Below are positions 4,373 through 18,530 of a stretch of 38,034 bases of DNA, in pieces (positions within the stretch are counted from its first letter, which is position 1; each line of letters begins with the position of its first letter). The stretch spans positions 1 through 38,034 of IMG/VR virus record IMGVR_UViG_3300012931_000045, one strand, 5' to 3'. Source of the DNA: a virus. The position numbers and the translations under genes are program-made. The notes below the pieces were generated by a model. That model was not told the DNA's origin and ran no database searches. It saw nothing but the letters and a program-made list of their open reading frames with translations.

Positions 4373-6310
4373 ATGGATGACGAACTAAGACGGAAAATCC
4401 AAAGGGCAAGGGAATTGGGCTGGCCGGAGGATATAATCCAGCCACTAGCCGCCAATTATATAGCGATGAAACAGAATGTCCCGGCCTTCGAGTCAACGGC
4501 GTCGGTCAGCCAGCAGTTTCTTGAAAATGCCACTCCCCAGGCATTGGAAACTACCGTACCGGCAAAAACGCAAAGGGTTAAGGGGTCGGAATACCTGCCG
4601 ATGGCGGGCGCAGTAGCGGGATCATTTGTCCCCGGCTTAGGACCGATCGGTGGCGGGGCAGTTGGCGCCGGCATAGGCGAACTTGCCCGGCAGGGCTTGG
4701 AGGGGGAGCAATTAGACCTAATGAAAGCCGGAAAAGAAGCGGGGATTGGTCTTGTTGGCGGAACAGTAGGGTGGGGAGCGGGGAAAATAGGCGGTTATTT
4801 ATTAAGGGGCGTCGGTAATTGGGCGGCCAAAGAAGCCGCGGGAGAAACTTTAAGGCTGACTGGTTCTAAGGTTGCCCCGGCGATCGAGAAGGGGATTGAC
4901 ATAAAAGGCGCTTTCCTTAAATGGGCGCCCAAATTAGGCTTGTCGTTTGACGACATGATCGGGCCAATAGCCGAGAGGGGCAAGGGTGGGGCAGTAAAAA
5001 CCCTGTTAACGGGTGAAGAAGGAGTCATAGACAGCGTTGCCAAGACCATAGGCAAGAAATTCAGGATTAGCGGAAAGTTGATAAAAGAAGCGGTCGAATT
5101 GGAAGCTGGGAACATAGGCGATGAGTTGGGTACTGGCCCTGTCAAGCGGGTGGCGCTAAAAAAAATCATTGAGCAGATAGGTGAAAAATACAAAAATGGC
5201 AAGTCAATAATTGACGCAAGGGAAATACTGAAAGCTGCCAATAAAAAGTTTGCCGACACTATCCTTGACACTACGAAAGATGCAGTCGCCAAAGCCTCAC
5301 AAAAGATAGAGGCTAACGCCATTAGGTCGGCACTTAAATCGAAATTCCCACAGATCGCTACAGCCCTCGACAACGAACAGGAACTTTTGGTGCTCAGGCC
5401 TTTATTAAACGAGGCGCGCAATAGGGCTTATGCGGAGGGCATGACGGGTAAATTGGCACGGGTCAGCTTGATGAACCCGCTTTCAACTGTCAACTTGGTT
5501 TTAGAGAGCCCTTTGATAACGGGGGTCGGCAGGAAAATCGGGGAAACCGCGATGAAAGCCGGGGCGAAAATACCGCCGGTTGCAGGCCAGGTAATGCCAA
5601 GAATGGGACAGTTACCCTCCACTCCCGGCGAAGTGCAAATGGGTGGGGAGGAAAAACAGGCACAGCAACAGGAATATACCGGCGACCAGGGCTATATCCA
5701 TGCCGCCGACGGAATTTACAGTGCCGACAGGACATGGAAATGGGACGCCGTTAAAAACGACTGGGTGCAAAATGCAGGAAGCGGCCAGGATGCCCAAAAA
5801 GAAAACCTGCGGTTGGCCATGCTTAATGCGGGAAGCGCGAAGGACTTTGATTTACTGATGAAAAAATATAAATTGTTAGGTGCAGGCGAAGAGGGCCAGC
5901 TGAATGTAAGTAAAGTAACCTCGCAAAACTATAGCAATGCCCTGTCCGGGGAAGACTCTTTTGCCAAGGCGAACGAGCTTATATTTAAGCCTGACGGAAA
6001 AACATTAGACAGAAATACCATTATCGCCCTAAAAACGCCCGGAACGCCCAACCAAAAAGCCCGGCAGCTTAAAGCATATCTTTATAATGTAGCCGATTCG
6101 TACCTTAGGCTAAGGACGGGGGCGCAGGCCAACCCGGCGGAAATTAAAAGGCTAGCGGACAGCCTTGAGCCGGGTTTATTTGACAGTGCGGAAACGATTA
6201 AAACCAAGCTGGGAATTTATGACATTACGTTCAACCAGATAATTAATTTAGCTAAAAATATGGACCTTGAAGAAACGGTATTGCAATACCCGAATGCAGC
6301 GATGGAATAA
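4373..6310 (+). CDS. Large internal virion / DNA-ejection-type protein (645 aa)
   Basis: The ATG follows the previous stop by two bases. Residues about 75-150 form glycine-rich hydrophobic segments (MAGAVAGSFVPGLGPIGGGA, GIGLVGGTVGWGAGKIGGYL) with GxxxG-like spacing, typical of phage proteins that insert into the host envelope during genome entry. The middle (about 190-350) is helical and charged. A short WKWDAVKNDWVQ motif near 455 may be a small adhesion fold. The C-terminal 170 residues are helical. The pairing with the coiled-coil gene upstream resembles sets of ejection proteins in short-tailed phages. Function is inferred from composition and order only. Confidence 0.6.
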   Translation: MDDELRRKIQRARELGWPEDIIQPLAANYIAMKQNVPAFESTASVSQQFLENATPQALETTVPAKTQRVKGSEYLPMAGAVAGSFVPGLGPIGGGAVGAGIGELARQGLEGEQLDLMKAGKEAGIGLVGGTVGWGAGKIGGYLLRGVGNWAAKEAAGETLRLTGSKVAPAIEKGIDIKGAFLKWAPKLGLSFDDMIGPIAERGKGGAVKTLLTGEEGVIDSVAKTIGKKFRISGKLIKEAVELEAGNIGDELGTGPVKRVALKKIIEQIGEKYKNGKSIIDAREILKAANKKFADTILDTTKDAVAKASQKIEANAIRSALKSKFPQIATALDNEQELLVLRPLLNEARNRAYAEGMTGKLARVSLMNPLSTVNLVLESPLITGVGRKIGETAMKAGAKIPPVAGQVMPRMGQLPSTPGEVQMGGEEKQAQQQEYTGDQGYIHAADGIYSADRTWKWDAVKNDWVQNAGSGQDAQKENLRLAMLNAGSAKDFDLLMKKYKLLGAGEEGQLNVSKVTSQNYSNALSGEDSFAKANELIFKPDGKTLDRNTIIALKTPGTPNQKARQLKAYLYNVADSYLRLRTGAQANPAEIKRLADSLEPGLFDSAETIKTKLGIYDITFNQIINLAKNMDLEETVLQYPNAAME

Positions 6311-8482: not shown

Positions 8483-9100
8483 ATGGCAGAACCCAAACTT
8501 ATATGGCCCATCGGAAAGCTCCATGAATGGGAAAAAAACCCGCGTTCCATTACCGCCAGGGACTTTGAAAGGCTAAAGAAGCAAATCTCAGTGCTAGGGC
8601 AGTACAAACCCCTTATCATCACCGCTGACGGTACAGTCCTCGGGGGGAATATGCGGCTCAAGGCTTACCGTGAATTGGGCCTCGAGAACATTTGGGTGAG
8701 CATAGTTGAGGCGCCCGACGAAGCCAAGAAACTGGAATATTCACTCTCGGACAATGACCGCGCTGGGTTCTATGATGGTGACTTATTCTCCGGCTTGGTA
8801 GACCAATACCCAAACTTCAACTGGGGGGACTTTTCCATAGACTTGAACGTGCCGCTCAATATCAGCGACTTATTAGCCAAGTTTAACTTTGACCCGAACG
8901 CCGAATGGAATGGAATGCCCGAGTTTGACCAAAAGGTTAAGGGGTACAGGCAAATATTGGTGAACTTTGAAACTGACGGGGACGTGCAGAGATTTGCCGA
9001 GCTTATCGGGCAATCCCTGACCAGCAAGACTAGGTATGTCTGGTTCCCTAAAAAAGAGAAGAAAATATTGACTGGCCTTGCCTATAAGCATGAACCCTGA
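8483..9100 (+). CDS. ParB/Srx-like domain protein (205 aa)
   Basis: N-terminal ParB-type domain: NPR at 19-21, an LKKQISVLGQYKPLIIT segment and the nucleotide-binding GGNMRLKAYRELG (54-66). It lacks the HTH of chromosome-partition ParB. The C-terminal part (about 150-200: ILVNFETDGDVQRFAELIGQ, TRYVWFP) resembles a module I associate with phage ParB-like and DNA-modification proteins. It overlaps the glycosyltransferase start by 11 nt, so the two are translated together. A role with DNA modification is inferred from that pairing; plasmid-type partition is unlikely because no ParA is seen. Translation is probably leaderless. Confidence 0.75.
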   Translation: MAEPKLIWPIGKLHEWEKNPRSITARDFERLKKQISVLGQYKPLIITADGTVLGGNMRLKAYRELGLENIWVSIVEAPDEAKKLEYSLSDNDRAGFYDGDLFSGLVDQYPNFNWGDFSIDLNVPLNISDLLAKFNFDPNAEWNGMPEFDQKVKGYRQILVNFETDGDVQRFAELIGQSLTSKTRYVWFPKKEKKILTGLAYKHEP

Positions 9101-9926
9101 ATACCCAATATATATCCCCTCCAAGGGCAGGTGGGAGAGCCTGCTTACCGTAAAAACTTTGGAAAAGATGGGCGTTCCCTATAAAATCGTAGTTGAACCC
9201 CAAGAATATGAGCAGTATGCTTCGGCGGCAAACAAGGACAATATTCTAGTCTTGCCTTTCTCCAACCTGGGGCAGGGGAGCATTCCCGCGCGCAACTGGA
9301 TATGGGGCCATTCAATCAAGGCTGGCGCGGCAAGGCACTGGGTGATCGACGACAATATCAGGTGGTTCAGGCGGCTGAACAGGAACAAGCGGATACGGGT
9401 AAGCGACGGGACGATATTCAGGGCGGCGGAAGACTTTGTGGACAGGTATGAGAATGTAAAGATGGCGGGCTTCAACTATACGTTCTTTGCTGAGGAAAGG
9501 GGGGTAAAAAAGCCATTCTACCTAAACACCCGGGTCTATTCCTGCATCTTGCTAAGCAACGACATCCCCCACCGTTGGCGCGGAAGGTACAATGAAGACA
9601 CTGACCTGTCCATCAGGATATTGAAGAGCGGGTATTGTACCGTCCTGTTCAATGCCTTCCTGTGCGACAAGGCGGAAACAATGAGCATGAAGGGGGGCAA
9701 TACGGACGAACTCTACAGGCAAGGCAAAAAATATGACGGTAGGTTTGAGATGATGATGTCGCTCATACGCCAGCACCCGGACATTGTCCGCATCAACCGG
9801 CGGTTTGGCAGGTGGCAGCACTTGGTTGACTATCGGCCGTTCCGGAGAAATAGGCTGGTAAAAAGGGGGGGCTTGAAAATTCCAAGCGGGATAAACAATT
9901 ATGGCATGGCCCTGGCCAATATTTGA
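9090..9926 (+). CDS. TET-associated-type glycosyltransferase (278 aa)
   Basis: Start taken at the ATG 9090; a TTG lies 12 nt upstream. The GT-A-like fold is shown by YIPSKGR (8-14), the metal/sugar-nucleotide site DDN (87-89 in RHWVIDDNIRWF), LNTRVYS (145-151) and NEDTDLSIRIL (168-178). This pattern matches phage glycosyltransferases found with TET/JBP dioxygenases, which add sugars to 5-hydroxymethylcytosine in DNA. No dioxygenase or cytosine methylase lies in this window, so the acceptor base is inferred. Its last 28 nt overlap the minus-strand Vsr-like gene tail to tail. Confidence 0.75.
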   Translation: MNPEYPIYIPSKGRWESLLTVKTLEKMGVPYKIVVEPQEYEQYASAANKDNILVLPFSNLGQGSIPARNWIWGHSIKAGAARHWVIDDNIRWFRRLNRNKRIRVSDGTIFRAAEDFVDRYENVKMAGFNYTFFAEERGVKKPFYLNTRVYSCILLSNDIPHRWRGRYNEDTDLSIRILKSGYCTVLFNAFLCDKAETMSMKGGNTDELYRQGKKYDGRFEMMMSLIRQHPDIVRINRRFGRWQHLVDYRPFRRNRLVKRGGLKIPSGINNYGMALANI

Positions 9927-11388: not shown

Positions 11389-11416
11389 TTGACATAGCCA
11401 TGCTACGTGATATAAT
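11389..11416 (+). promoter_or_regulatory. Strongest consensus promoter of the window, TTGACA-N16-TGATATAAT
   Basis: Perfect -35 TTGACA (11389-11394) and perfect -10 TATAAT (11411-11416) with TG extension. RNA should start near 11423 and run into a 290-nt untranslated leader before the first early gene. Confidence 0.8.
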
Positions 11417-11422
11417 GCTTTT

Positions 11423-11652
11423 ATAATATTATAAACGATATTAGGACCTTAAAATAACCAATCAAATCAAATTAACCCAAGGGGAAAATTCCAACCCTGC
11501 TGGTTCCATCCCGAATCTACCCGACGCTAAAAATATTTTTGATTGGTACCCGAAAAAATCCACTCTCTTGGGTGGTCATTGATTTTTTCTACAATCTCTT
11601 GTTTCCGAACTGACTCTAACAGAGGAAAATTAAATTTCCGGCTGATTGCCGG
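11423..11652 (+). ncRNA. Long structured leader or small RNA of the early operon
   Basis: No gene is supported here. ACCAATCAAA (11457-11466) can pair with TTTGATTGGT (11538-11547), enclosing about 70 nt that include the short hairpin AACCCTGCTGGTT. A second stem pairs GAAAAAATC (11552-11560) with GATTTTTTC (11581-11589) around an inner CCAC/GTGG helix and ends in a U-tract, so RNA could stop near 11590. A small CCGGC/GCCGG hairpin follows at 11638-11652. It may be a stand-alone RNA, an attenuated leader or a riboswitch-like element. Confidence 0.45.
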
Positions 11653-11696
11653 TTCGGGGGTAAGAGCGGGGCTTAAACGCCCTGCTCTTGCCCGAA
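11653..11696 (+). promoter_or_regulatory. Long stable hairpin before the first early gene
   Basis: About 15 continuous pairs (including GAGCGGGGC with GCCCTGCTC) around the loop TTAAAC, plus two or three outer pairs. There is no U-tract. The SD GGGAG and the ATG at 11717 follow. It occupies the same place (just before an SD) as the three repeated RNA elements downstream but is not the same motif. Confidence 0.6.
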
Positions 11697-11716
11697 TTTA
11701 AGGGAGTGAAAATATT

Positions 11717-12013
11717 ATGAATATGATTGACAAAAATTTTCGGGAAGCATTGGGGCAAATATTGGGCGGGGTTTTCGCTAAAAAGTCCAGCGCAAGGCGA
11801 ACGTTATATATGTATTTTTCAAATACAGGAAACTACGATAAATATTTTTTTACCACTGTAAAAGTAAATTTTAAGGGTAAGCAAAAATATGTTTCCGGGA
11901 TTTGTCGCTACATTGAAACGGAAAAAACATGGAAATTGATAAATGAAGCGGAACACGAACTAAAAGAAAATGCTTATGCAAAAGCTCTTGAATTATTTAA
12001 GAATAAAATTTAA
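11717..12013 (+). CDS. Early hypothetical protein (98 aa)
   Basis: SD GGGAGTG about 8 nt before the ATG; a second Met is at codon 3. Mixed beta/helical protein with aromatic strands (RRTLYMYFSNTGNYDKYFFT) and a charged helical C-terminus (EAEHELKENAYAKALELFK). No family is recognised. It is the first gene after the strongest promoter, so it is probably made early and abundantly, a place often taken by host-takeover or anti-defence proteins. That role is only inferred. Confidence 0.6.
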   Translation: MNMIDKNFREALGQILGGVFAKKSSARRTLYMYFSNTGNYDKYFFTTVKVNFKGKQKYVSGICRYIETEKTWKLINEAEHELKENAYAKALELFKNKI

Positions 12014-12071
12014 GGCTTGTGGGTGGGGTAAAACTTCATGCTTAATTTTACCCCGCCATCGGTTGCTTAAA
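12009..12071 (+). ncRNA. Repeated two-stem intergenic RNA element, copy 1
   Basis: Outer stem TTTAAG (12009-12014) with CTTAAA (12066-12071); inner stem GGTGGGGTAAAA (12022-12033) with TTTTACCCCGCC (12046-12057). Internal loop: 7 nt GCTTGTG on the 5' side and 8 nt ATCGGTTG on the 3' side. It overlaps the stop of the preceding gene and ends 5 nt before the next SD. Confidence 0.7.
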
Positions 12072-12090
12072 TTAAAAAGGGGGTGATTTT

Positions 12091-12255
12091 ATGATAACCA
12101 AAGACCAATTTTCTGCCTATATAAATGTCCAGATGTCGGGCGTAACCAATATGTTTGACGTCAGGACGGTTTCAGAATTGTCGGGGCTTTCCCGTGAGCA
12201 AATTCTGGAAATTATGAAAAATTACGGGGAATTGGAGAAAAAATATGGCAACTAA
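12091..12255 (+). CDS. Small conserved-looking phage protein (54 aa)
   Basis: Very strong SD (AAGGGGGTGAT, 12077-12087) before the ATG. The sequence (QFSAYINVQMSGVTNMFD, then VRTVSELSGLSREQILEIM) is helical with an HTH-like second half and an acidic-basic tail. It resembles short proteins I have seen in many phages, of unknown function. It overlaps the next gene by 11 nt. Confidence 0.65.
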   Translation: MITKDQFSAYINVQMSGVTNMFDVRTVSELSGLSREQILEIMKNYGELEKKYGN

Positions 12256-12433
12256 AAAGCGGTTTGTAAAATGCCCGGCCTGCTCGATGGTCTATCCGAG
12301 GGAATTTATATTTTGCCCGCGTTGCGAGGACTCTTACTACGAGGCAAAACATAATTTGATTGATGATGACCACGATTGCCACGCCGACCGTGAGGACGGC
12401 TGTAGCTATCCAGAACTACACCGACCGGAATAA
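12245..12433 (+). CDS. Zinc-ribbon protein (62 aa)
   Basis: C10xxC13 and C24xxC27 (KCPACSMVYPREFIFCPRCE) form a zinc ribbon. The acidic, His-rich C-terminus (DDDHDCHADREDGC) adds possible metal ligands. It starts inside the previous gene, so translation is coupled. Probably a nucleic-acid- or RNA-polymerase-binding early protein; no specific function is recognised. Confidence 0.65.
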   Translation: MATKKRFVKCPACSMVYPREFIFCPRCEDSYYEAKHNLIDDDHDCHADREDGCSYPELHRPE

Positions 12434-12492
12434 GTTAAGACCTGCGGGTGGGATTGACGGTAGCCCTTCAATCCCGCCATCGGTTTCTTAAC
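12434..12492 (+). ncRNA. Repeated two-stem intergenic RNA element, copy 2
   Basis: Outer stem GTTAAG (12434-12439) with CTTAAC (12487-12492); inner stem GGTGGGATTGA (12447-12457) with TCAATCCCGCC (12468-12478). Internal loop 7 nt ACCTGCG / 8 nt ATCGGTTT. Compared with copy 1, both stems change on both sides and stay paired. Confidence 0.7.
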
Positions 12493-12511
12493 CGGGAAGG
12501 GAGGTGATTAT

Positions 12512-13279
12512 ATGGACAATTACAATTTTCCTGTAGATTTGCAACCGATTTACTTCGGTAAGCACCAGAAGATTGACAACAGAATGGCGGTTATCCGAAC
12601 CGACACCAACACTCCGCTCGGCATAGTGTCCGATAACTACGGAATGGTCAAACATTCGACGGTTATCGACTCTTTCAGGGCGGCGGGGAAAAAATACGAA
12701 ACTAAGGAAAAAATTACCTTAACAAATAACGGGGCAAACCTTTTTTACCGTATGGATTTCCCTAAAATCGAGGGTGAGGTTAGGAAAAACGACCTGCTCC
12801 GCCTGCAAATAACAGTCAAAAATTCCTATAACGGAAGTAATTCCCTGCGGATTATTTTCGGGGCGTTGCGACTTGTTTGCTTAAATGGCATGGTTATCGG
12901 CCAGAAGTTTATGGCTTTTGCCTACCGCCACATCGGTGAAGTCGGGGGCATGGCAGACGCCGATACAATCGGAAAATACGAGGACGCCTATAAGAAATAC
13001 ATCAAACTGTTTTCTGAAACTTTGCCCGAAATTCAAGCCATGTCGAGGGCGAAAATCGCCAAGGATGGTGGATTATTCGATAAAAAGAAAATCCATATTC
13101 CCGGGTATTTACTTGAGGAAGCAGAGGCCAGTTACAAATCGACCGAAGACTACACGGTTTGGGGATATTACAATTCCCTGACTTACGCCATTACCCATAA
13201 AATGAAAAGGGAAAGTATCAGTCAATCAATGTTTTATGGAATGGTTGCGTGGAAAAAATCCGAAAGCCTGCTGGGTTGA
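12512..13279 (+). CDS. DUF932 family protein (255 aa)
   Basis: SD GGGAGGTGAT before the ATG. Matches the phage/plasmid DUF932 family in overall pattern: GIVSDNYGMVKHSTVIDSF (37-55), a central VKNSYNGSNSLRIIFGALRL (about 108-127) with VCLNGM, and a helical C-terminus ending VWGYYNSLTYAITHKMK. The family is common in early regions of phages and in plasmids; its biochemical role is unknown. The length is usual for short members. Confidence 0.8.
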   Translation: MDNYNFPVDLQPIYFGKHQKIDNRMAVIRTDTNTPLGIVSDNYGMVKHSTVIDSFRAAGKKYETKEKITLTNNGANLFYRMDFPKIEGEVRKNDLLRLQITVKNSYNGSNSLRIIFGALRLVCLNGMVIGQKFMAFAYRHIGEVGGMADADTIGKYEDAYKKYIKLFSETLPEIQAMSRAKIAKDGGLFDKKKIHIPGYLLEEAEASYKSTEDYTVWGYYNSLTYAITHKMKRESISQSMFYGMVAWKKSESLLG

Positions 13280-13282
13280 TTA

Positions 13283-13311
13283 TTGACCTTACCTGCCCAG
13301 TTTTATAAAAT
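13283..13311 (+). promoter_or_regulatory. Promoter with CCTGCCC spacer motif, copy A
   Basis: TTGACC (13283-13288), 17-bp spacer containing CCTGCCC, -10 TAAAAT (13306-13311), then a TATAAT just after. It drives the 173-residue gene, here with a normal SD leader. Copies B (14576) and C (17394) share the spacer motif and spacing. Confidence 0.6.
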
Positions 13312-13339
13312 TATAATACTGTAAAGGGGGTGATTAAAA

Positions 13340-13861
13340 ATGGGATTGGATATGTTCTTACACAGGCGGATTTTTGTCTGGTCGGAAGACCGCAAAAACC
13401 TTAAAATCCAACTCGCAAAAACCCCGATAAAAGGTGAAAAAGTGGACTATATCGTGGAGGAAGCGGGGTACTGGCGTAAGGCAAACGCAATCCACAAATG
13501 GTTCGTCGATAATGTCCAAAAGGGAAACGACAACTGCGGCGAATATTATGTGGACGAAAACCAAATGCTGGAACTTCTGGTAACAATCAAAAAGGTTATC
13601 GAAGCCTCCGAATTGGTCGACGGCGATGTGGTCAATGGTTATTCCTTTAAAGACGGCAAAAAAACGCCGATAATCGGAAAGGGTAAAACAATCAAAGACC
13701 CGACCGTGGCGCAAACGCTTTTACCGACCACCGAGGGATTTTTCTTTGGCGGCACGGAATACGACCAATATTACATTGACGACTTGCGACAGACACAACA
13801 AATTCTCGAGGAATGCTTAAAGGATAAGCGGGGTGATTATTATTATTCCTCAAGTTGGTAA
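13340..13861 (+). CDS. Conserved phage hypothetical protein (173 aa)
   Basis: SD AAAGGGGGTGAT before the ATG. The opening MGLDMFLHRR, the central AGYWRKANAIHKWFVDNVQ (about 41-59) and LPTTEGFFFGGTEYDQYYIDD (about 131-151) are recognisable as a family widespread in phages and of unknown function. It has its own promoter and is flanked downstream by copy 3 of the repeated RNA element. Confidence 0.7.
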   Translation: MGLDMFLHRRIFVWSEDRKNLKIQLAKTPIKGEKVDYIVEEAGYWRKANAIHKWFVDNVQKGNDNCGEYYVDENQMLELLVTIKKVIEASELVDGDVVNGYSFKDGKKTPIIGKGKTIKDPTVAQTLLPTTEGFFFGGTEYDQYYIDDLRQTQQILEECLKDKRGDYYYSSSW

Positions 13862-13922
13862 TTTAAGCCTTGCGGGTGTGGTCAAGTTCGCAGGTCATTG
13901 ACCACGCCATCGGGAACTTAAA
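13862..13922 (+). ncRNA. Repeated two-stem intergenic RNA element, copy 3
   Basis: Outer stem TTTAAG (13862-13867) with CTTAAA (13917-13922); inner stem GGTGTGGTCAA (13875-13885) with TTGACCACGCC (13898-13908). Internal loop 7 nt CCTTGCG / 8 nt ATCGGGAA. It starts right after the stop of the upstream gene and ends just before an SD. Confidence 0.7.
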
Positions 13923-13939
13923 AAAAGGGGGGTGATTTT

Positions 13940-14152
13940 ATGGAAAATTCCATGGGTTTTGAACATCTGATAGTCGCCCAAAAATCAAGCGGAATACCTT
14001 TTGACTGGACGCAGGTTTTAACTGCGGCGCTTGGATTTTTGTTTATCTGTTTAATCGCTGTTATGGCTTATGAAGCGGGGCGGTATTCAATGGTCGGGTA
14101 CATCACCGAGGCAAAGATGTGCCATTTATATTGTTTGGGAGGTCAAAAATGA
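13940..14152 (+). CDS. Small single-pass membrane protein (70 aa)
   Basis: SD GGGGGGTGAT before the ATG. One transmembrane helix at about 25-44 (VLTAALGFLFICLIAVMAYE) with a polar N-terminus and a Cys-containing C-terminus. The ATGA overlap couples it to the next gene. Early membrane peptides often serve in host takeover or superinfection exclusion; nothing here decides. Confidence 0.55.
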   Translation: MENSMGFEHLIVAQKSSGIPFDWTQVLTAALGFLFICLIAVMAYEAGRYSMVGYITEAKMCHLYCLGGQK

Positions 14153-17968: not shown

Positions 17969-18171
17969 AAAAACGAATAAATAAAACTAAATTTCAACCG
18001 CAACCAATTACGAGAGTCAACTGCCCGATTTGTGGGGAAATACAACTTAAAATTTATCCTTATTCTAATTATAAGCCGCAACCGGGGCGGCCCTTAGTTT
18101 GCTTAAAATGCTTTAATAACGGGCGGGCGAAGGCGTTGCCTGAACTTAAATCGCCCAGTTGTTTGGATTAG
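17965..18171 (+). CDS. Zinc-ribbon protein (68 aa)
   Basis: Basic N-terminus, then C20xxC23 and C46xxC49 (NCPICGEIQL and LVCLKCFNNG) forming a zinc ribbon. The ATG overlaps the preceding TGA. It is the last gene before the gene-free stretch carrying the tRNA-like att core. Likely a nucleic-acid-binding accessory protein. Confidence 0.6.
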   Translation: MKKRINKTKFQPQPITRVNCPICGEIQLKIYPYSNYKPQPGRPLVCLKCFNNGRAKALPELKSPSCLD

Positions 18172-18325
18172 CTCCTTAAAATCTGGTGTCGCATAATAAA
18201 CCGCTATGCACGGTTAGTGCAACGTTGAAGCCCCGTAAGGGGTAGCCGGTGAAATGTAATAATCAAAGATTTCTTTGGCTCTCGCAAGAGTGAGGCGGGT
18301 TGGGTGTCCAATATCATCACTATCA
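18172..18325 (+). other. Gene-free, hairpin-rich stretch upstream of the tRNA-like core
   Basis: No convincing gene. Several short perfect hairpins lie in series: GCATA/TATGC, GCAC/GTGC, CCCC-GTAA-GGGG (a GNRA-type tetraloop), CAAAG/CTTTG and CTCT-CGCA-AGAG. This may be a structured RNA or the arm-binding region of an attachment site. I do not recognise a known RNA family in it. Confidence 0.35.
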
Positions 18326-18366
18326 AAAATGGTTGATTGCGGGTTCGAGTCCCGTCGCCCCCGCCA
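18326..18366 (+). other. tRNA 3'-half sequence ending in CCA, probable attP core
   Basis: T-arm GCGGG-TTCGAGT-CCCGT (18339-18355) is followed by CGCCCCC (18356-18362), discriminator G and CCA (18364-18366). The preceding AAAATGGT and TGATT fit an anticodon-stem 3' strand and variable loop. No 5' half lies upstream, so no complete tRNA is encoded. Phages that integrate into tRNA genes carry exactly such a 3' end as attP. The G discriminator and AAA before the stem would suit a host tRNA-Trp, but that is tentative. No integrase is in the window. Confidence 0.6.
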
Positions 18367-18530
18367 ATGGGGGCGAACAGTGGTATTCAGTGCAGAGGGC
18401 GCCAATCTTGGAAAGCTCTTATTTTGGTACTTGTTGGACTTTGGGACGGCAGATTGAGGAAACTTGAAATGCCCGATCTTAGGAAAGCGGTATTGATTTA
18501 TTCTTTCCCGCCAGATTTTAGGGAACTAAA
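18367..18530 (+). other. Gene-free stretch after the att-like core
   Basis: No supported gene. It opens with GGGGGCG (18369-18375), the exact complement of the tRNA acceptor strand just upstream, so the two form a 7-bp hairpin with a 6-nt loop. The remainder shows no recognised signal apart from weak inverted repeats. Confidence 0.35.

Follow-up and report, generated by a model that had tools for sequence, protein, structure and literature searches.

Gene content of the locus

The stretch of DNA analyzed here (the window) comprises 38,034 bases and is a phage record from IMG/VR. Its portal protein shows 38% identity to that of MW202566 and 27% to that of a TM7 (Saccharibacteria) phage, and for the capsid protein the respective values are 58% and 35%. 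A TET-associated glycosyltransferase is encoded at 9078-9926 (Pfam TAGT, 5.8e-49), suggesting, because of this match, that the phage glycosylates modified bases in its own DNA. Elsewhere, the region 18169-18529 looks like a circularly permuted tmRNA in which the T-arm and 3' acceptor (GCGGGTTCGAGTCCCGTCGCCCCCGCCA) are located directly before the 5' acceptor (GGGGGCGAACAG); it scores 21.7 with Rfam tmRNA_permuted against a threshold of 47, ARAGORN reports none, and its DNA has 71% identity to that of L211 and L209, two near-identical loci in which a different acceptor still pairs.

Three intergenic gaps of the window contain copies of one hairpin element. The genes and signals around them are as follows.

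11389-11416, plus strand: promoter-like TTGACA-16-TATAAT, upstream of the gene block with copies 1 and 2, identified purely as a perfect consensus match
11717-12013, plus strand: 98-aa ORF upstream of copy 1, no family
12079-12087, plus strand: SD GGGGGTGAT, read from the sequence, serving the gene (ATG 12091) that follows copy 1
12091-12255, plus strand: 54-aa ORF, weak DUF5049-like match below the Pfam cut-off
12245-12433, plus strand: 62-aa ORF whose stop precedes copy 2, weak zinc-ribbon match below the Pfam cut-off
12500-12508, plus strand: SD GGAGGTGAT, read from the sequence, serving the gene (ATG 12512) that follows copy 2
12512-13279, plus strand: 255-aa DUF932 protein downstream of copy 2 (Pfam 2.1e-18)
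13283-13311, plus strand: second, weaker promoter-like site after the DUF932 gene and before the 173-aa gene, likewise purely a consensus match
13340-13861, plus strand: 173-aa protein whose stop precedes copy 3, many IMG/VR relatives
13927-13936, plus strand: SD GGGGGGTGAT, read from the sequence, serving the gene (ATG 13940) that follows copy 3
13940-14152, plus strand: 70-aa ORF downstream of copy 3, no family

The order is accordingly 98-aa ORF, copy 1, DUF5049-like ORF, zinc-ribbon-like ORF, copy 2, DUF932 gene, 173-aa gene, copy 3 and 70-aa ORF. No close relative of the DUF932 protein turned up when one was searched for directly. From the position of the genes and the promoter-like sites we infer that the block is probably early and co-transcribed as one transcript. 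The leader of the first gene (11560-11716) is also structured, in a way unlike the repeated element: a 15-bp hairpin at 11658-11693 lies immediately upstream of the SD and is itself preceded by a CCGGC/GCCGG hairpin that is possibly enclosed by TTAAATT/AATTTAA.

The gaps that hold the element are nearly constant in length, with 77, 78 and 78 nt from stop to ATG for copies 1, 2 and 3, and each accommodates the element together with a strong SD, the 3' end of the element lying 17-19 nt before the ATG in all copies. The original prediction placed each copy between a stop codon and an SD, which is borne out with the qualification that the outer stem of copy 1 overlaps the upstream stop codon, whereas those of copies 2 and 3 start right behind it. 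Readthrough or recoding at the upstream stops was considered and rejected given that, by our reading, the frames soon meet further stops.

Structure and covariation of the element

All three copies that had been predicted to share one fold were confirmed at the following positions.

12009-12071, plus strand: copy 1; P1 12009-12014/12066-12071, P2 12015-12017/12061-12063, P3 12022-12033/12046-12057, internal loop 12018-12021 (TGTG)/12058-12060 (ATC), bulge 12064-12065
12434-12492, plus strand: copy 2; P1 12434-12439/12487-12492, P2 12440-12442/12482-12484, P3 12447-12457/12468-12478, internal loop 12443-12446 (TGCG)/12479-12481 (ATC), bulge 12485-12486
13862-13922, plus strand: copy 3; P1 13862-13867/13917-13922, P2 13868-13870/13912-13914, P3 13875-13885/13898-13908, internal loop 13871-13874 (TGCG)/13909-13911 (ATC), bulge 13915-13916

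The consensus fold obtained with RNAalifold from the three copies consists of P1 (6 bp), a 2-nt bulge on the 3' side, P2 (3 bp), a UGYG/AUC internal loop, P3 (11-12 bp) and a variable cap, so that each copy combines 20-21 standard pairs with the internal loop. P1 is UUAAG/CUUAA plus one outer pair; P2 comprises a covarying pair N10-N58 (G-U, A-U and C-G), followed by C-G and Y-G; and P3 opens with GGUG/CGCC and, at 12 bp in copy 1, is one pair longer there than in the other two copies (11 bp). Refolding thus agrees with the original description of a 6-bp outer and an 11-12-bp inner stem and revises that of the region in between: instead of plain internal loops of 7 and 8 nt, a covarying 3-bp helix (P2) lies inside, leaving the UGYG/AUC loop and the 2-nt 3' bulge. 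The pattern TTAAG-N-YYTGYGGGTG...CGCCATCGG-NNN-CTTAA has exactly three matches in the window and none in 100 dinucleotide shuffles. An unfiltered covariance search of the window detected no fourth copy, the next plus-strand match scoring 12 bits against 78-83 for the copies.

Standard pairs are present in 60 of the 60 pair cells (20 pairs in three copies), and 6 of the 20 pairs show double compensatory changes, so the claim that the stems vary on both sides while remaining paired holds, together with the conservation of the loop bases: the core is invariant, whereas the apical loops differ at 67-90% of positions. When the 3' partners were moved by 1-3 columns as a sliding control, 32-53% of the cells were paired. 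In the statistical test of covariation that had been proposed along with the prediction, all cells were paired with a probability of 7e-4 under permutation of the partner letters and of about 1e-4 when initially perfect stems were left to drift neutrally (17 pairs, in P1 and P3), values that are to be taken as indications rather than proof because the drift model is simple and three sequences give limited power. Furthermore, every copy folds better than all 200 of its own shuffles (z of -3.6, -5.0 and -4.0 for copies 1, 2 and 3, respectively).

When the whole gaps were folded as single sequences up to the ATG, copy 3 kept the full element, whereas copies 1 and 2 were predicted to keep P3 and to trade P1 for pairings that reach the SD; an alternative fold touching the SD is therefore possible in this model. 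By eye, no good pairing by which the element would sequester the SD was apparent.

Several features indicate that the element acts as plus-strand RNA. The third position of P3 is an invariant U-G pair (columns 19-50) that would be C-A on the minus strand, the minus-strand folds of the copies are weaker, and the orientation is identical in all three copies, each of which lies in a stop-to-SD gap. Together with the compensated stems and the invariant core, the U-G wobble and the placement support the original view of a selected structured RNA rather than a DNA repeat. The same holds for the view that the copies are not intrinsic terminators: a terminator and promoter scan found no stem followed immediately by a T run at the three sites, where ATCGG and then A-rich sequence follow. 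An attC-like recombination site was also rejected, since in our reading the outer stem lacks RYYYAAC/GTTRRRY boxes.

Distribution of the element

No Rfam 15 family matched the element at gathering scores or up to E=10. IMG/VR was scanned with exact words, and near-identical records may be missing from the collections, which limits the following negatives. Among the matches listed for GGGTG..CGCCATCGG, and likewise for the core without P1, a stem check left chance ones only; TAAG with the loop and the base of P3 gave nothing; and neither the 5 matches to P1 and the P3 base with the loops free nor the 7 matches to the 3' side of P1 with ATCGG contained the element. A 22-bit genome match in L204, an Armatimonadetes MAG, was dismissed as chance, its P1 being mispaired and its P3 not extending past the base. 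With the covariance model, no copy outside the window was detected in 81 sources (including 80 loci of relatives of the 173-aa protein), in 16 whole phage records or in 22 whole records of capsid relatives (31-79% capsid identity, some of them fragments). The nearest relatives by capsid protein are among those without the element, and in L236, from a capsid relative, two genes homologous to nearby ones of the window (identities of 49% and about 33%) are packed without it.

The original prediction had tied its claim to the existence of further copies. No homologue outside this phage was found in the searches above, which counts in part against that claim; the structure itself stands, and the missing homologues set a limit on the distribution of the element without removing that structure. 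As a described RNA the element is new, and precedents exist for this kind of device.

Comparison with intergenic RNAs of other phages

A scan of 127 loci that relied on geometry and made no use of the motif sequence returned just two places where intergenic hairpins recur with constant flanks and differing stems: the window (and its pieces) and L186. In L186, at about 6496, 6893 and 7147, three TATAAT promoters are each followed by a perfect hairpin, with a different compensated stem every time, and then by an SD. What L186 has in common with the window is a set of three hairpins between genes, immediately upstream of an SD, whose flanks are conserved and whose stems vary with compensation; the L186 hairpins are nevertheless simple, perfect and located directly behind a TATAAT box, not after a stop codon, and they probably cap the 5' ends of new transcripts.

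In the T7 early region, irregular hairpins lie in the leader as well as in gaps of 62, 70 and 80 nt; five of them can be aligned and have in common a core around GTGGCCTT, with a loop that varies. We take these to be the R0.3, R0.5, R1, R1.1 and R1.3 sites, which carry no annotation in the T7 record. Like the T7 RNase III sites, the copies in the window form a set of irregular hairpins, each about 50-60 nt long and alone in its gap between a stop and an SD, in which the apical loops vary and an alignable core lies close to the internal loop. Unlike them, the window element has the 3-bp P2, the 2-nt bulge, the UGYG/AUC loop and an invariant P1, and its cleavage is putative; covariance model R1 gave no match in the T7 early region up to E=10. 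For the T7 R1.1 RNA, cleavage of one bond by E. coli RNase III yields products of 47 and 13 nt (PMC4858673).

The third comparison concerns the phage contig L162, which encodes a homologue of the 173-aa protein (38% identical) and a weak DUF932 match (21%). The first of its two hammerhead-like RNAs (4810-4865) begins at the stop (4815-4817) of an 80-aa ORF, two ORFs upstream of the 173-aa gene (5001-5453), and precedes the SD of a short ORF that starts at 4884 and is followed by the 173-aa gene; the second (5453-5510) lies behind the stop of the 173-aa gene and ahead of the SD belonging to the DUF932 gene (5535). The two RNAs have different stems, which are paired in both. Each RNA scores 21.7 bits with Rfam, well below threshold, and the hammerhead descriptor gives 0-1 matches per shuffled set against the 2 real ones in L162, so that the assignment rests on the pair lying 642 nt apart in equivalent gaps and not on the count. 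Clustered hammerheads that flank prophage genes were described by Perreault et al., who considered that long phage transcripts are possibly processed by them (PMC3088659). The window shares with these arrangements multiple RNA elements between neighboring phage genes, one of those in L162 lying behind the 173-aa stop and before DUF932, and differs in that its element has neither a CUGANGA/GAAA core nor a three-way junction and that self-cleavage would be putative. A type II hammerhead-like sequence was also noticed near 2513 on the minus strand of L338, an unrelated phage contig brought in by the motif scan.

Functional interpretation

The best reading, which we hold tentatively and with somewhat less than even confidence, is that the element acts in cis within the presumed early phage transcript, as a hairpin for RNA processing or for marking mRNA boundaries. 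The three copies would represent one hairpin family that sets message boundaries between genes: the irregular hairpin, with about 20 standard pairs and the conserved UGYG/AUC loop, would serve at the RNA level as both recognition and cleavage site, the most probable enzyme being a host nuclease of the RNase III type that acts close to the internal loop. If cleavage fell on the 3' side, the upstream message would keep a protective hairpin at its end and the downstream message would begin with a short open leader and a strong SD, which might affect message stability or translation. This reading is favored by the compensated fold with its invariant core and variable apical loops, by the 77-78-nt gaps, by the restriction of the multi-copy pattern to the window and L186 among the 127 loci, by the T7 early-gap hairpins of similar size, and by the hammerhead-like RNAs around homologous genes in L162 in conjunction with the reading of prophage hammerheads as possible transcript processing (PMC3088659). 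Against it stand the lack of any sequence match to the T7 sites, L162 or L186, the nearest capsid relatives and the packed early genes of L236, all without the element, and the fact that the hammerhead parallel comes from a single phage, with scores far below the Rfam threshold. In addition, RNase III does not usually need a sequence-specific core of this kind, and such a core points rather to a specific RNA-binding partner.

Such a partner is central to translational control, which appears unlikely while deserving consideration before the remaining alternatives. A phage or host protein would bind the conserved internal loop and gate ribosome loading on the SD only a few nt further downstream or, in a variant covered by the same estimate, initiation would be coupled to translation termination of the upstream gene, where the ribosome would melt P1. 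The position of P1, which starts at or inside the stop, and of its end 17-19 nt before the ATG in every copy agrees with this possibility, and an invariant core with variable stems would suit a protein-binding loop. However, the SD itself is unpaired within the element, GGGGGTGAT-type SDs occur elsewhere in the window without it (for example, at the ORFs starting at 13340 and 14297), and no RNA-binding protein was recognized among the phage proteins scanned.

To our knowledge, the fold in the window is simpler than those of known small ribozymes, and an undescribed class of self-cleaving ribozyme, which would cut within the UGYG/AUC loop and take the place of the L162 hammerheads, appears improbable. 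The parallel consists in the hammerhead-like RNAs of L162 in the same kind of gap around the same gene pair, and clustered prophage hammerheads flanking genes are documented to self-cleave in vitro and in vivo (PMC3088659). The element nevertheless is a single hairpin with no evident pseudoknot or three-way junction and matches no Rfam family up to E=10; with hammerhead descriptors and Rfam up to E=10, the CUGANGA...GAAA core in a three-way junction was not found at the elements. The specific form of a minimal class, in which the loop of the single hairpin would be the active site cutting the phage message between genes as hammerheads do elsewhere, is more doubtful still.

Quite improbable, too, is a cis-acting antitermination RNA (put, nut or EAR-like) that would be loaded onto the passing polymerase at several points. 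A structured RNA repeated along the phage transcript and the terminator-like hairpins in later intergenic gaps would fit this, but known put and EAR elements act near the transcript start, not behind each stop codon, and the stop-to-SD placement would be unexplained. For a DNA-level element, for example a cruciform or a single-stranded site recognized by a mobile or replication system, the probability is very low: a folded DNA strand could also use compensated stems, and there are three dispersed copies, but the U-G pair that becomes C-A on the other strand, the less stable minus-strand folds and the same orientation with strict stop-to-SD placement in every copy argue against it. Least credible is a functionless repeat that spread recently, given the compensatory changes alongside the invariant core, even though copies are known from this phage only.

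Implications

The element is an RNA motif undescribed in Rfam. A single phage, with capsid and portal proteins similar to those of a Saccharibacteria (TM7) phage, carries it in three covarying copies, and these natural variants of one core are convenient for cleavage assays in vitro. If it is a processing site, as in the reading preferred here, the comparison with L162 would suggest that phages unrelated to each other fill the same gaps around this gene pair with different RNA devices, which would be cut either by a host enzyme or by the RNA itself.
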